NCBI GenBank assembly: GCA_012735575.1
Contig: JAAYGY010000101.1
Coordinates: forward strand, 1-58,362
Direction: 5' to 3'
DNA length: 58,362 nt
Source of the DNA: Clostridiales bacterium
Lineage (GTDB): Bacteria; Bacillota; Clostridia; Caldicoprobacterales; UBA3941
The position numbers and the translations under genes are program-made. Shown piece after piece: positions 996 through 8,101 of this stretch. The notes beneath the pieces are model-generated. The model did no database searches, was not told where the DNA came from, and worked only from the letters and a program-made list of their open reading frames with translations. The number at the start of each line of letters is the position of its first letter. Position 1 is the stretch's first letter.

Positions 996-1775
996 ATGAA
1001 ACAAAAGATACGGGTTGCCATAATAGATGACAACTCCAGTATACGGGAGATAGTTGCATCATACATTGAAATGCAGGAGGATATGGAAGTAGTAGGCGCG
1101 GCAAGGGATGGTTTAGAGGGTATAAATATAATTCATGAAACAGCTCCCGACGTAGTTATTTTAGATATGATTATGCCAAGATTGGATGGACTTGGGGTAT
1201 TGGAACACTTTAGCATGTCTGCTGAAGAAGGTAGTCCCTTTTTCATCTGTCTTTCTGCAGTCGGACAGGAGGAGTTAATACGAAAGGCTGTTGGTATGGG
1301 GGCTAAATACTATATGATAAAGCCCTTTGATATGGAAATGCTGGTAAAGAGGATCAGGGAGCTAACCAGGAACAGAAAAGGAATAGCAAAGGTACACCAA
1401 GCTCCAATAAGTAACGACAGGGCAAAGAATCTTGAAGAGAAGATAACCGATATCTTTCTTCTTATTGGAATACCGGCTCATATAAAAGGATATCATTATC
1501 TGAGGGAAGCTATAAAAATGGTAGTAAAGGATGGAGATGTAATAAACCGAATTACCAAGGAACTCTATCCAGGTATTGCTAAAACCTTTAATACAACTCC
1601 CAGCAAGGTAGAAAGGGCCATCCGCCATGCCATTGATGTAGCATGGAATAGGGGTAAGGTAGAGAATATTAATCAGCTCTTTGGCTATGTTGTCTATGAT
1701 GAAAATGACAAACCTACCAATGGGGAGTTTATTGCATTAATAGCCGACAAGCTGAGTATGGACGAATCAGCTTAA
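996..1775 (+). CDS. spo0A: Stage 0 sporulation protein A (Spo0A), sporulation master response regulator
   Basis: Spo0A is the phosphorylated DNA-binding protein that commits the cell to sporulation by activating or repressing genes at 0A boxes. The 259-residue length is normal. Residues 1-125 form the receiver domain, with acidic pocket D11-D12, phosphoacceptor D57 in the motif VVILDMIMP, conserved S87 and K109. A linker leads to the C-terminal Spo0A effector domain (about 145-255), whose recognition helix region reads TPSKVERAIRHAID, nearly identical to known Spo0A proteins. ATG 996 follows a GGGGAGGG ribosome binding site. The gene stands alone between a terminator and a strong promoter. 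The usual spoIVB neighbour is not visible; it could be further left. Confidence 0.98.
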   Translation: MKQKIRVAIIDDNSSIREIVASYIEMQEDMEVVGAARDGLEGINIIHETAPDVVILDMIMPRLDGLGVLEHFSMSAEEGSPFFICLSAVGQEELIRKAVGMGAKYYMIKPFDMEMLVKRIRELTRNRKGIAKVHQAPISNDRAKNLEEKITDIFLLIGIPAHIKGYHYLREAIKMVVKDGDVINRITKELYPGIAKTFNTTPSKVERAIRHAIDVAWNRGKVENINQLFGYVVYDENDKPTNGEFIALIADKLSMDESA

Positions 1776-1787
1776 AACCCTGGATTC

Positions 1788-1816
1788 TTGACAAAAAGAC
1801 ATAATCATAATATAAT
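1788..1816 (+). promoter_or_regulatory. Perfect-consensus sigma-A promoter
   Basis: TTGACA (1788-1793) and TATAAT (1811-1816) match the consensus exactly and are separated by the optimal 17 bp. Transcription would start near 1823, giving a leader of about 35 nt before the ArsR-type gene at 1858. Confidence 0.85.
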
Positions 1817-1857
1817 GATATCTGGATATAATATTATTAAGAAAGTAGGAGACTGCA

Positions 1858-2151
1858 ATGGCAACCAGGTTGGCTGATTATGAAAGGAAGGCAGAAATTC
1901 TAAAGGTTCTAGGACATCCTGTTCGGCTATGCATTGTAAACGGCCTCATTACCAAAGAGTGTAATGTATCAGGGATTCAGGACTGCTTAAAACTTCCTCA
2001 GTCCACCATATCTCAGCATTTGAGTATTTTAAAGGCTCATGGAATTATAAAGGGCAAACGGAATGGTTTAGAGATTACCTATTCTGTTGTGGATGAGGAT
2101 GTAATTCGCTTGGTTAAAGCATTTTTGGAGGAGGCCCAACCTTTTAAGTAA
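1858..2151 (+). CDS. ArsR/SmtB-family winged-helix transcriptional regulator
   Basis: This 97-residue protein has the ArsR fold: an N-terminal helix, LKVLGHPVRLCIVNGL, a helix-turn-helix around residues 38-60 with PQSTISQHLSILKAHG, then a beta-wing (KGKRNGLEITYSV). Such proteins are usually dimeric repressors released by metal ions, or in some branches by sulfur or redox signals. Cysteines are C25, C35 and C43. The classical ELCVCDL metal motif is only partly kept (KECNVSG), so a metal ligand set is uncertain and a thiol or persulfide sensor is possible. The gene is monocistronic behind a perfect sigma-A promoter, with no metal or sulfur gene beside it. The RBS is AGTAGGAG. Family is clear, inducer unknown. 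Confidence 0.9.
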   Translation: MATRLADYERKAEILKVLGHPVRLCIVNGLITKECNVSGIQDCLKLPQSTISQHLSILKAHGIIKGKRNGLEITYSVVDEDVIRLVKAFLEEAQPFK

Positions 2152-2255
2152 GCTAAAGAAAAAAAGGGGCCTCTAAGCCAGTCAAATCCCTCAAAAAAAC
2201 TTAAAACACCAGAAAAATTCCCAGAATGTAGAAAAAGAGGTAAACATAATAATAC

Positions 2256-2361
2256 TGTGGAAAACCATGACATGTATCCACAGACCAAAATCCTTTAAAA
2301 TAGGAATTTGGGGATAAGTCTGTGGACAATGTGGATAAGTCTTTTGTAAACCTGTGGATAA
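2256..2361. promoter_or_regulatory. Cluster of six DnaA-box-like sequences in a gene-free spacer (2152-2482)
   Basis: The 331-bp spacer contains two perfect boxes, TGTGGATAA (reverse of TTATCCACA), at 2330-2338 and 2353-2361. Four more differ by one base: TGTGGAAAA 2256-2264, GTATCCACA 2274-2282, TGGGGATAA 2309-2317 and TGTGGACAA 2321-2329. A weaker seventh lies at 2375-2383. Boxes at 2321 and 2330 abut, and most share one orientation. AT-rich DNA follows (about 2384-2460). No dnaA, dnaN or rpmH is nearby, so this is more likely a DnaA-binding cluster than oriC, but the sequence cannot settle it. I see no gene in the spacer. Confidence 0.75.
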
Positions 2362-2482
2362 CTTCGTCATATTATGTGGAAATTTAGACTTTTTAATTTA
2401 AGAAGGATTTTTGAACCTTATGGCGAATACAATTTTACATATGGGAATAATATATTAAAATTGCTTTCTGGAGGGAGACAAA

Positions 2483-2878
2483 ATGGCGTACAAAAAATGT
2501 CCTAGATGCAGTCTAAATTATATCCAGGACACTGAAGTTCTGTGTAAGATATGTTTAGGTGAAGTAGAAAAAGCAATTCGTGCTAACGGTGAGGACGAAG
2601 AAGAATACGATATTTGCCCAGAATGTGGGGAAAATATTATAAAAGCTGGCGAAGATATGTGCTATCAATGTATGTTAGAACATATTAAAGATGAGGTAGA
2701 TGAGGAGAGCAGGAAAAAGGATGAGTGGGAAGACTTTCTTCCTAAAGGAGAAGATGATGACCTCTTTGTAGAAGATGATCAGGAAGACGACCTCGAAGAG
2801 TTAGAAGAGATAGATTTAGATGAGGAATACGATGATGTGAATATTGATCCTGAGGACGAAGAGGATTTTGATTTATAA
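2483..2878 (+). CDS. Small double zinc-ribbon protein with acidic tail, function unknown
   Basis: The protein has 131 residues. Residues 1-25 hold a first CPRC...CKIC pair and residues 44-67 a second CPEC...CYQC pair, each suited to bind one zinc ion. After a short helix-like segment, the last 55 residues are almost entirely Asp and Glu and are probably disordered. Zinc ribbons plus an acidic tail suggest a protein-, RNA- or polymerase-binding adaptor, but this is inference only. ATG 2483 follows a GGAGGGAG ribosome binding site. It lies alone between the DnaA-box spacer and a terminator. I recognise it only as a hypothetical-type clostridial gene. Confidence 0.85.
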   Translation: MAYKKCPRCSLNYIQDTEVLCKICLGEVEKAIRANGEDEEEYDICPECGENIIKAGEDMCYQCMLEHIKDEVDEESRKKDEWEDFLPKGEDDDLFVEDDQEDDLEELEEIDLDEEYDDVNIDPEDEEDFDL

Positions 2879-2965
2879 ATAATATTTACATATTTTATGT
2901 AAATAGGGAAATAATAACTATATAATAAAAATCATCCTTGCAAAATTCTATTGCTTCATTTTTAG

Positions 2966-2998
2966 AACGCTTGTACCGTTAGGTTACGGCGTTTTTTT
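2966..2998 (+). terminator. Rho-independent terminator
   Basis: AACGC (2966-2970) pairs with GCGTT (2989-2993), with inner pairing of GTACC and GGTTAC, followed by seven Ts. It closes the zinc-ribbon gene unit. Confidence 0.7.
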
Positions 2999-3086
2999 CA
3001 TGTATTTGGCTATTATGGAATTAAAGGAATCTATAGACCCTTTTTTGGGCATCATATAGATAAAAAATTATTTAGGAAGTGATACA

Positions 3087-3344
3087 ATGATTAACTTTGA
3101 AGCACTAGAAAAAATAAAGGAAACTTTAGAGTCAAACATAGGAGAAAGGGTCAGGCTAAAAGCAAATGGAGAGCGCAGGCGTACCTATGTTGATGAAGGG
3201 ATTATTCATGATATATATCCCAGTGTTTTTACAGTGTTGGTTAATCTTGACAAAGAAAGTACCAGGACCTTATGCTACACCTATTCTGATGTATTGACCT
3301 CCAATGTAGAATTAATAGTATGCAAAAATAATCAAAGAATTTAA
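3087..3344 (+). CDS. veg: Veg protein (DUF1021 family)
   Basis: This 85-residue protein matches the Veg family: an N-terminal helix (EALEKIKETLESNIGERVRLKA), a GERR motif around residues 28-31, and a beta-rich SH3-like core ending in LTSNVELIV. In B. subtilis Veg stimulates biofilm gene expression and is very highly expressed; its molecular partner is not settled. ATG 3087 follows AGGAAGTG. As in B. subtilis, it lies upstream of ispE, but here the sipL gene lies between them instead of an sspF-type gene. Confidence 0.9.
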   Translation: MINFEALEKIKETLESNIGERVRLKANGERRRTYVDEGIIHDIYPSVFTVLVNLDKESTRTLCYTYSDVLTSNVELIVCKNNQRI

Positions 3345-5267: not shown

Positions 5268-6158
5268 ATGAGGTGTATTTCTATAAAGGCATACGCAAAG
5301 ATAAATTTAACTTTAGATGTGGTGAGCAGGCGGGAAGACGGCTATCACAATGTGGAAATGATAATGCAGTCAGTTGATCTATGGGATCTTATAACAATAA
5401 AGGAGATGGGTGAAGGAATAAGGCTAGATAGCAATATCCCAGGACTGCCTACAGATGAGGGGAATATAGCATGGAGGGCAGCCCAGCTCATAAAGTCAAA
5501 ATTTGATATACCCACAGGGATTCATATAACCATTGACAAGAACATTCCCATAGAAGCGGGACTGGCAGGAGGCAGTGCAGACTGTGCAGCGGTGCTGTCA
5601 GGCCTTAACCAGCTATGGAATCTGAGGATGGATATAAAGGACTTACAGGCTTTGGGCAAAGAGCTGGGGGCCGATGTTCCTTTTTGCCTGTCAGGAGGGA
5701 CAGCCCTGGCTCAAGGTATTGGGGATATGCTCACACCTATTGAATCCAAAGAAGAGATGTGGCTGGTCATAATAAAGCCGGAATTTGAGGTGTCAACAAA
5801 GGAGATATACAGTAGATTAAAGCTGGAGGCCATTGAAAAAAGACCCCATAATCCAAAAGTGATAATGTATCTGGAATCTGGAGACATACAAGGCATAGCC
5901 AGTAGCCTGGTTAATGTTATGGAGGAGATAACCATCCCTATGCATCCTGACATATCCAGGCTAAAGGCAGATCTTAAAGCACAAGGTGCCCTGGGAGCCT
6001 TAATGAGTGGAAGCGGGCCTTCGGTTTACGGTATTTTCCCAAGTGGGGAGGCTGCCAGGGCAGCAGCAAAGCTCCTGAAGGGAAAATACAGCCAGGTATT
6101 TGTCACTAAAACTATGCCTTGGGGCTTGGCCCTGGCTAAGCCAGGCTCTTCTTTATGA
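5268..6158 (+). CDS. ispE: 4-diphosphocytidyl-2-C-methyl-D-erythritol kinase (IspE)
   Basis: IspE phosphorylates CDP-methylerythritol with ATP in the MEP isoprenoid pathway. The sequence shows GHMP-kinase features: an N-terminal AYAKINLTLDV followed by DGYHN (substrate loop), the ATP loop PIEAGLAGGSADCAAVL in the first third, and C-terminal LMSGSGPSVYGIF. I place the start at ATG 5268, which fits homologues starting M-x-I; an upstream TTG at 5229 would add 13 residues without family support, and ATG 5247 is also in frame. The product is 296 residues. The 3' end overlaps the convergent gene on the minus strand by 23 bp. In B. subtilis purR follows ispE; here it lies 47 kb away. Confidence 0.95.
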   Translation: MRCISIKAYAKINLTLDVVSRREDGYHNVEMIMQSVDLWDLITIKEMGEGIRLDSNIPGLPTDEGNIAWRAAQLIKSKFDIPTGIHITIDKNIPIEAGLAGGSADCAAVLSGLNQLWNLRMDIKDLQALGKELGADVPFCLSGGTALAQGIGDMLTPIESKEEMWLVIIKPEFEVSTKEIYSRLKLEAIEKRPHNPKVIMYLESGDIQGIASSLVNVMEEITIPMHPDISRLKADLKAQGALGALMSGSGPSVYGIFPSGEAARAAAKLLKGKYSQVFVTKTMPWGLALAKPGSSL

Positions 6159-7922
6159 TTTTTGCTATCATACCTGTTCTGTTAAAGGGTGTAACCAGGT
6201 AGACTCCATCTACATGTCCCTTTATTTTATTAATTAGTTCAACTGCAATATCTATTCCCACATCTTCTGCCTGCTGCCGGGACATATCAGGTGAAAATCT
6301 TTTAATATATTCCTGTGATATATCTATTCCCGGCACCTCATTATTTAGAAACATGGCGTTTCTATAACTTACCAGAGGGATGATACCCGCCAGTATCTTA
6401 ACATTGTATTGCTCCTTAACTTTCTTTAAGTGTTCAATTACATCATGGTAAAATATTGGCTGGGTCAAGAAGAAACTGGCTCCCTTTTCAGCCTTACGAT
6501 TCATTCTCCTGATTTCTACATCCTTATTTAAGGCATTTAAATTAAGGGCACCACCAAGAAAATAGGGTTCAGAAACAAACACCTCCTGATTCATTTCTGC
6601 AATCATTTCTATCAGTTTGATAGAGTTTAGATTAAAGACGCTCTTTATATCATTTCGTTCAGGACTGGGAATAGGGTCTCCTGTAACTATAAGCAGGTTC
6701 CGTATTCCCTCTGCATGAGCAGCCAGCAGGGAGGACTTAAGGGCAATTATGTTTTTATCTCGGCAGCATATATGGGGCATTGCATCTATGCCTGCTTCCC
6801 TTTTAATTTAGCTGCTATCATAACTGAATCTGCTCTGACTTTAGCCATAGGGGAATCAGCAACGGTTATGATATCTGCTCCCCTGTCCTTAAGTTCTTTG
6901 GCACCCCTTATCATTTTTTCCAAATTTGTACCATAGGGCGGATCTAGTTCTACTGCTATGGTAAATTCATTGTTTTTCAGTTTACTGGCAAAAGGGTTGG
7001 GGTATACAGGGGAGAGGACTTTATCTTTAACTTTAGGCCTGGTTACAATGACAGGTGGGGAGGGCTGTATATCCAGCTTTTCTGCCAGTGTCTTTATATG
7101 CGCAGGGGTGGTACCGCAACATCCTCCTATAATGTTAACGCCCAGGGCCTTTATATCTATCAGCTTCTGGGCAAAATACTCGGGATTTTGCTGATACACG
7201 GTCCTTTCATTTATGACAATGGGATATCCGGAATTGGGCAGTGCTGAGACTATATCCTCTGATAAATCCAGTTTTTTTATAATGTTATATAGATGAGTAG
7301 GACCGATACCACAGTTAAAACCGTATGCATCTACAGCAGTTATTTCTTTTATTTGCCTTTGCACCCGCCTGGCGCTGATCCCTTTTCTCGTATATCCATC
7401 TGTATTCAGGGCAAATTCAACCAGGATAAAAGCCTTGGGGTTTGATGCCTTTATATGTTCAGCTACTTCTTTAATATATTCCGTACTACTAAAGGTTTCA
7501 AAGATAAATACATCTGCGCCAAGAGATAAAAAACTATCAGCCACAAATAAATATTCATCCCGCAAAAGATCCTTTTCCAAGGTTTTACCTTCAACCAGTT
7601 CCGGTATAGGGCCTATACTGGCAGCCACAAAAACATCATGATCCTTTGCAGCTGATTTGGCTATCTCATATCCAGCATTTATTAATTCTTGAATTTCCTT
7701 GCGGCTTTTGCCAAGGGTAAAAGTGTTTGCGGAAAAGGTATTAGTTCGAATAAGCTTGGCTCCTGCCTTAATATACTCTTGGTGAATGCTTTTGATTAAT
7801 TCGGGCCTATCTGTATTAGCCAGCTCCGAGACCGTAGTTTCAGATCCGCTTATATGAGAGTAATAGGTTCCCATGGCTCCATCTGTAATTAGGATATTAT
7901 CTTTTAAGTATTTTTTTATCAT
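6136..7922 (-). pseudogene. yitJ: YitJ-type bifunctional homocysteine S-methyltransferase / methylenetetrahydrofolate reductase, split by a frameshift
   Basis: Two consecutive reading frames together form one protein of about 590 residues. The first (7922-6786) carries the homocysteine S-methyltransferase domain (ITDGAMGTYY, zinc ligands in GFNCG and IGGCCG) and enters the MTHFR domain at FTIAVELDPPYGTN. It ends in KLKGKQA followed by TAG. The next frame (from 6780) resumes with MPHICCRDKNIIALKSSLL and continues the TIM barrel to the end. Restoring one base at the AAAAGGG run (plus strand 6798-6804) gives KLKREAGIDAMPHICC, as family members read. So this is one gene broken by a single-base loss: a mutation, a homopolymer sequencing error or, less likely, recoding. 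If intact it would link folate reduction to methionine synthesis. Its end overlaps ispE. Confidence 0.9.
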
Positions 7923-7951
7923 TAAACTACCCTCTCTTAGATATTTATCAT

Positions 7952-7980
7952 AATATATAGCATAGGCTATATGTAATCAA
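7952..7980 (-). promoter_or_regulatory. Candidate sigma-A promoter for the YitJ-like gene
   Basis: On the minus strand TTGATT (7980-7975) and TATATT (7957-7952) are separated by 17 bp. The spacer contains a perfect palindrome, ATATAGC-CTAT-GCTATAT, which could be an operator. The transcript leader would be only about 20-25 nt, leaving no room for an S-box riboswitch such as precedes B. subtilis yitJ. Confidence 0.5.
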
Positions 7981-8012
7981 CCTTTTGTGCCAGTTCATCT
8001 CATATGAATGAC

Positions 8013-8055: not shown

Positions 8056-8101
8056 ATATGCATAAAGAATTATATGCATAAAGATTTATATGCATAAAGA
8101 T
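8054..8101. repeat. Three tandem 16-bp repeats in the divergent spacer 7923-8314
   Basis: TTATATGCATAAAGA plus one base is repeated three times (8054-8069, 8070-8085, 8086-8101); only the last base varies. Each unit contains the self-complementary TATGCATA, so there are three evenly spaced palindromes at about one and a half helical turns. The rest of the 392-bp spacer holds the YitJ-like promoter, a dispersed element copy and AT-rich DNA; a TATAAT at 8235-8240 without a good -35 could serve the rightward gene. Confidence 0.85.

Follow-up and report, generated by a model that had tools for sequence, protein, structure and literature searches.

What does a dense group of DnaA boxes do in a spacer downstream of spo0A, on a contig that carries neither dnaA nor dnaN? 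The locus belongs to a clostridial genome of 2.59 Mb in 105 contigs, and the window analysed here is one of these contigs in full (C82; 58,362 nucleotides). To our knowledge, it is not settled how initiation is limited in Clostridia that are without the DnaA regulators of B. subtilis.

Clustering of DnaA boxes in a single spacer

The window contains six DnaA boxes within 106 bp, none departing from TTATCCACA at more than one position (Table 1). Two of them are perfect (at 2330 and 2353) and two abut (2321 and 2330), as the first-pass annotation had reported and our re-scan confirmed. The boxes lie in a 331-bp spacer (2152–2482), and 480 bp separate the stop codon of spo0A from the first box, in agreement with the earlier estimate of about 500 bp. 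The earlier statement that such a density is unlikely to arise by chance also held: dinucleotide shuffles of the whole window (n = 300) yielded at most two such boxes per 106 bp, and shuffles of the spacer (n = 5000) yielded at most three, a number reached in two shuffles.

Elsewhere in the window, no stretch of 300 bp holds three or more boxes. Genome-wide, perfect copies of TTATCCACA number 51 compared with 41 for the reversed control pattern, which is no clear excess of single boxes. Because perfect boxes are not clearly in excess across the genome, the signal resides in the cluster, and the exceptional feature is the clustering rather than the genome-wide number of boxes. Further clusters exist in the genome; the census rests on 100 of 161 TTNTCCACA sites listed and includes at least those around dnaA on contig C49, at C1:33430–33679 and at C97:2180–2267.

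The C1 cluster (L003:8431–8680) comprises eight boxes between the glucuronate isomerase and DUF1538 genes, and its geometry differs from that of the array. The C97 cluster (L257:2180–2275), also not an origin, has boxes 12, 9 and 23 bp apart that run in the direction opposite to the array, and sits between the genes of a treble-clef zinc protein and a solute-binding protein. The window itself has a small tandem array of another kind at 8057–8097, composed of three TTATGCATA sites at exact 16-bp intervals (8057, 8073 and 8089).

Table 1 Features of the spo0A–veg region of the window. Boxes are named by their offset in bp from box 0; f1–f4 are families of the order, f1 being that of the window.
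Feature	Position	Strand	Remarks
spo0A, upstream neighbour	996–1775	+	TIGR02875, E 1e-102
ArsR-family regulator	1858–2151	+	Separates spo0A from the array in f1; in some f2 genomes, at a greater distance from the array
Whole array	2252–2365	+	Match to model R1, E 1.3e-23, 84 bits; the window is among the 21 sequences from which R1 was built
Box -53	2256–2264	-	TTTTCCACA; forward box at -52 to -56, at most one mismatch, in 21/23 anchored arrays (not G003, G004)
Box -35	2274–2282	+	Inverted, GTATCCACA; inverted box at -34 to -38 in 23/23 anchored arrays
Non-box segment	2283–2308		AAAATCC, A+T-rich; conserved between boxes -35 and 0
Core box 0	2309–2317	-	Variant TTATCCCCA
Core box 12	2321–2329	-	TTGTCCACA; 3-bp gap after box 0
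Core box 21	2330–2338	-	Perfect TTATCCACA; abuts box 12
Box 44	2353–2361	-	Perfect TTATCCACA; offset 44 at no more than one mismatch in 18/23 anchored arrays
Possible sigma-H-like promoter	2404–2429	+	AGGATTTTT...GGCGAATA; single match in the window (0.01 expected)
Acidic zinc-ribbon protein, downstream neighbour	2483–2878	+	Relatives in 30/30 genomes of the order and 0/31 others
veg	3087–3344	+	PF06257, E 6.1e-25

Conservation and geometry of the array across the order

A sequence-only model of the array, R1, was built from 21 sequences and searched against 30 genomes of the order, Caldicoprobacter included. It matched 26 of the 30 at E <= 1e-9, a figure to be taken as a count of presence and not as independent proof, since many of the 26 genomes are in the training set. 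Those without a match were G008 and G017, which form part of one genus (g7), G027, and G010, whose locus contains runs of N. Loci selected through relatives of the zinc-ribbon protein, that is, without use of the array, displayed it at the same or nearly the same spacings in the upstream spacer in 14 of 30 cases; at the other 16 loci the array lies further off, or there is a contig end or a stretch of N.

Outside the order, among 391 sampled genomes of the class, R1 reached E <= 1e-9 only in G270 (2.1e-12), where the spo0A–array–veg arrangement recurs, and in G179 (9.6e-10), where the match adjoins tsaD. In a control set of 23 spo0A loci from 22 genomes of other families (26 of 31 class genomes listed), no more than one box per 111 bp was present within ~1.5 kb. 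Judged from these comparisons of sequence, the array is a conserved element of the whole order.

The 23 script-anchored arrays share one layout, with a forward box at -52 to -56, an inverted box at -34 to -38, and boxes at 0, 12, 21 and 44. Six boxes with at most one mismatch are found in 12 of the 23, and four or five in the remainder. In G011, G021 and G024 the third core box is at offset 20 instead of 21, so that the step from box 12 measures 8 bp and not 9. Box 0 reads TTATCCCCA in 14 of the 14 loci fetched via the zinc-ribbon protein rather than by the array pattern, while the order genome G021 has TTGTCCCCA instead. This constant variant may determine the sequence in which DnaA assembles, or favour ATP-DnaA.

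Ungapped identity among the 14 loci is 0.86–0.90 in the core, 0.38–0.58 in the rest of the array and ~0.3 beyond it. The conserved text includes the non-box segment, for which mean pairwise identity over -30 to -1 is 0.52–0.58 (91 pairs), compared with ~0.3 beyond the array. The array is an island of identity inside otherwise diverged spacers.

Genes around the array

Upstream, spo0A is found on the same strand in 24 of the 26 arrays of the order, within ~2.2 kb in 23 of them and at 5.2 kb in G028. The two arrays for which no spo0A was seen are those of G029, on a 7.9-kb contig with none, and G012, for which 1.5 kb upstream was read. The interval between spo0A and the array holds the ArsR gene in f1, the ArsR gene and/or a pyridine-nucleotide oxidoreductase with a rhodanese domain in f2 (one genome in full), nothing in f3, and an aldo/keto reductase or no assigned gene in f4. 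The next gene downstream encodes the zinc ribbon in f1–f3 and phosphoglucomutase in f4; G007 instead has a convergent YibE/F gene there, and the array lies between the ends of spo0A and that gene.

Because the neighbouring gene changes, the array is unlikely to be the operator of only one gene, and it does not have the constant place relative to one gene that characterizes an sda-type DnaA-regulated promoter. The ArsR and zinc-ribbon genes, between which the first-pass annotation had placed the cluster in its title, are incidental neighbours. The zinc-ribbon protein had no family match above the cut-off.

Downstream of the array, the possible sigma-H-like promoter includes a 0A-box-like TGGCGAA at 2421–2427. 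Its assignment relies on the general sigma-H consensus, and is tentative because the strict form of the pattern matches 2 of the 23 arrays; in the alignment, similar promoter-like text was seen in families f1 and f2. A search for RNA elements gave no Rfam match at 1700–3200, and no terminator-like site was found at 1750–3100.

Position relative to the replication origin

The gene dnaA was located on contig C49 in the usual order jag-yidC-rnpA-dnaA-dnaN-recF, away from the window contig, in accord with the earlier observation that neither dnaA nor dnaN is near the boxes. Box clusters lie on both sides of dnaA, and the dnaA–dnaN spacer contains a TAG/TAA repeat ending in GGG, which we take to resemble the DnaA trios of B. 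subtilis. No trio repeat is present on either strand of 2151–2483; the array does not have the make-up of a Bacillota oriC, in which trios and an unwinding region adjoin the boxes beside dnaA. GC skew along C82, calculated in 2-kb windows, is positive throughout except at 6001–8000, where minus-strand genes lie, and it does not switch at the array but is positive on both sides. The suggestion of an unrecognised origin was therefore rejected, given that dnaA, the trios and box clusters are on C49 and that the array has neither trios nor a skew switch.

The C. oshimai (G009) copy of the array sits on a 1.05-Mb contig, ~33 kb short of one end; 19 of 20 skew samples from this contig are negative, and the dnaA contig changes sign at dnaA. 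The skew places this array on the origin side, as far as unordered contigs allow. In the closed genome of G008, which has no array, spo0A and the zinc-ribbon gene adjoin ~280 kb from dnaA. These two relatives, the second of them array-less, suggest by indirect evidence that the array may be origin-proximal.

Comparison with known DnaA-box loci outside oriC

We compared the array with the DnaA-box clusters (DBCs) of B. subtilis, with DARS1, DARS2 and datA of E. coli, and with the promoter of sda. The B. subtilis clusters (Okumura et al. 2012, as described in PMC5295017, PMC13220808 and PMC11019786) are, like the array, dense box groups found apart from dnaA in a spore-forming Gram-positive bacterium, and the array shares two of their traits: several close intergenic boxes above chance expectation, at a place that is not the origin, with dnaA elsewhere. 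It may also resemble them in location, if it lies in the origin-proximal part of the chromosome; the comparison is one of description. Unlike these clusters, the array lies near spo0A and keeps a near-invariant six-box geometry throughout an order that has no detectable YabA, Sda or SirA.

DARS1 and DARS2 are, like the array, small and intergenic groups of boxes, and they too have a tandem pair at a 12-bp distance. The three-box core of DARS (an inverted box, then tandem boxes at +14 and +26) is represented in the array by the tandem pair only, as no inverted box precedes the pair by 14 bp, and there is no relation in gene context. The datA locus is, like the array, a cluster of DnaA boxes outside the origin, but in MG1655 its spacing is different and it has no tandem pair, and the array does not follow a datA-like layout. 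Membership of either class was rejected on box layout. Boxes 0 and 12 correspond to the "double DnaA box" of E. coli, a same-direction pair with a 3-bp gap, as described in PMC11317965; in the array, unlike the double box, the pair is joined by an abutting third box and flanked by three others at defined distances. The boxes of the sda promoter are tied to the sporulation pathway, as those of the array may be to judge by their position; Sda, however, is undetected in the order, and no single gene accompanies the array throughout. Since the array has only the tandem pair of DARS, and datA has neither that pair nor the inverted box, we file the array as a DnaA-box cluster outside oriC, new in place and geometry.

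Proposed role and alternatives

We hypothesize that the array is a DnaA-holding control site outside oriC that would limit re-initiation, and we put the probability of this reading at roughly 60%. The parts that we infer, namely DnaA binding, oligomer formation, sequestration and the origin-proximal position, would combine as follows. DnaA would load on the tandem core (boxes 0, 12 and 21) with the aid of the flanking boxes (-53, -35 and 44), and the bound DnaA would form a compact oligomer of fixed shape. An origin-proximal array would be duplicated soon after initiation, and the DnaA held there would leave less free DnaA and hinder early re-initiation, as with the B. subtilis clusters. Removal of six clusters outside oriC in that organism resulted in early initiation, according to PMC5295017 and PMC13220808. 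In E. coli, DnaA favours same-direction box pairs 2–3 bp apart in ChIP-seq (PMC11317965); boxes 0 and 12, 3 bp apart, fit this preference.

The sequestering reading is strengthened by the order-wide conservation, by the changing neighbour genes and by the failure to detect YabA, Sda or SirA (none of the three in any of the 30 order genomes; B. subtilis, the control, was positive). The convergent genes of G007 favour it as well, since no downstream promoter is expected there. Counting against it, the array is dispensable because genus g7 (G008 and G017) is without it, a downstream gene lies at promoter distance from the array in most genomes, and the evidence for its distance from the origin is indirect. 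Such exact spacing may point to a more specific role, as a simple sink needs no fixed geometry. Of the earlier interpretation, the idea of a DnaA-titrating or regulatory cluster fits well, the origin does not, and the sporulation link is one of position.

The main rival is an operator role, in which array-bound DnaA would regulate the adjacent gene and couple replication state to expression, as at sda; its targets would be the zinc ribbon and veg in f1–f3 and phosphoglucomutase in f4. Box 0 is 161–283 bp upstream of the zinc-ribbon gene in f1–f3, in f4 the phosphoglucomutase gene begins a short way from the array, the window has a possible sigma-H-like promoter after its array, and DnaA activates sda in B. 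subtilis (PMC4447404). We nevertheless regard this role as unlikely: the array stays while the downstream gene and spacer text vary among families, it lies between convergent genes in G007, and few arrays carry the strict sigma-H pattern. A zinc-ribbon operator in particular is weakened by the phosphoglucomutase neighbour of f4 and by G007. The fixed spacing and the constant variant box could alternatively suggest more than a sink, namely a catalytic switch in which a complex of fixed geometry promotes nucleotide exchange on DnaA, like DARS, or ATP hydrolysis, like datA. The tandem 12-bp pair is indeed common to the DARS1 and DARS2 regions at no more than two mismatches, but the array has no counterpart of the inverted box that both MG1655 DARS regions carry 14 bp before the pair, datA has no such pair, and a 2026 review (PMC13220808) describes B. 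subtilis as being without DARS or datA loci, all of which makes a switch very improbable. As for a second or former replication origin, the dense boxes do lie near a small A+T-rich stretch (2391–2420, 80% A+T), but with dnaA, its flanking clusters and the trios all on C49, skew positive on both sides of a trio-less array, and the skew of C. oshimai switching at dnaA, we consider it scarcely credible.

The closeness of spo0A had led the first-pass annotation to a link between replication and sporulation. The array could work together with spo0A, for instance by altering local DnaA or spo0A transcription after passage of the fork, or through competition with Spo0A at 0A boxes close by. The upstream spo0A gene, in 24 of the 26 arrays and also in G270, is consistent with such coupling, as is an order without detectable Sda and SirA; in B. 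subtilis, Spo0A binds 0A boxes that overlap DnaA boxes of oriC (PMC5295017). Against it, the array lies on the downstream side of spo0A, from which at least one gene often separates it, spo0A is distant in G028 and unseen on the G029 contig, and the shared position may be plain synteny. From -200 to +350 bp of box 0 in the 23 arrays, TGNCGAA occurs 14 times compared with 4.58 expected from single-base shuffles; 13 of the 14 sites are in f1 genomes, the other being one hit in G023, and several fall within the zinc-ribbon gene or a promoter-like element downstream. Competition between Spo0A and DnaA at shared boxes was rejected as an order-wide mechanism for this reason, and coupling with spo0A in general seems to us doubtful. 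The proximity part of the link stands and the Spo0A boxes are essentially a matter of f1; a sporulation role, suggested by position, is possible. A broader and rather improbable scheme would make the array the order's replication-to-sporulation control element, a substitute for YabA, Sda and SirA: when the fork duplicates the locus, DnaA would assemble beside spo0A into an oligomer of fixed geometry that would tune both re-initiation and entry into sporulation, the three-box core being an ancient portable module (recF, tsaD, dnaD/murC).

The same core at other loci

An exact scan with a 29-base core pattern, restricted to one genome per species, gave 113 loci. By neighbour homology, 70 of these are at recF, 21 at spo0A/zinc-ribbon/veg, 12 at tsaD and 5 at dnaD/dnaC–murC, with 5 unplaced. 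At the 70 recF loci (L041, L049, L059 and 67 more), TGGGGATAA-nnn-TGTGGA...-TGTGGATA lies just downstream of recF, near but not at oriC; this group is mostly Pseudonocardiales, by record titles. Just downstream of tsaD, in several cases before lgt/murC, a cluster whose core is identical or similar recurs in Clostridia and in a Symbiobacterium-labelled record (L047, L064, L074, L084, L093, L096, L124, L142, L148 and others; L192, L263). In Lachnospiraceae/Eubacteriales (L037, L048, L058, L078, L146) the core is between murC and a DnaB_2-domain/dnaC-like helicase-loader pair, a placement that suggests control of replication genes by DnaA. The literature searched yielded no description of spo0A-, recF- or tsaD-side arrays.

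The array of the window, a defined 110-bp element with a geometry kept order-wide near spo0A, offers a concrete target for deletion and functional tests. That four locus types, spread over two phyla, have one 30-bp core suggests a common architecture of DnaA sites outside oriC, which may be searched for in genomes without experiments.
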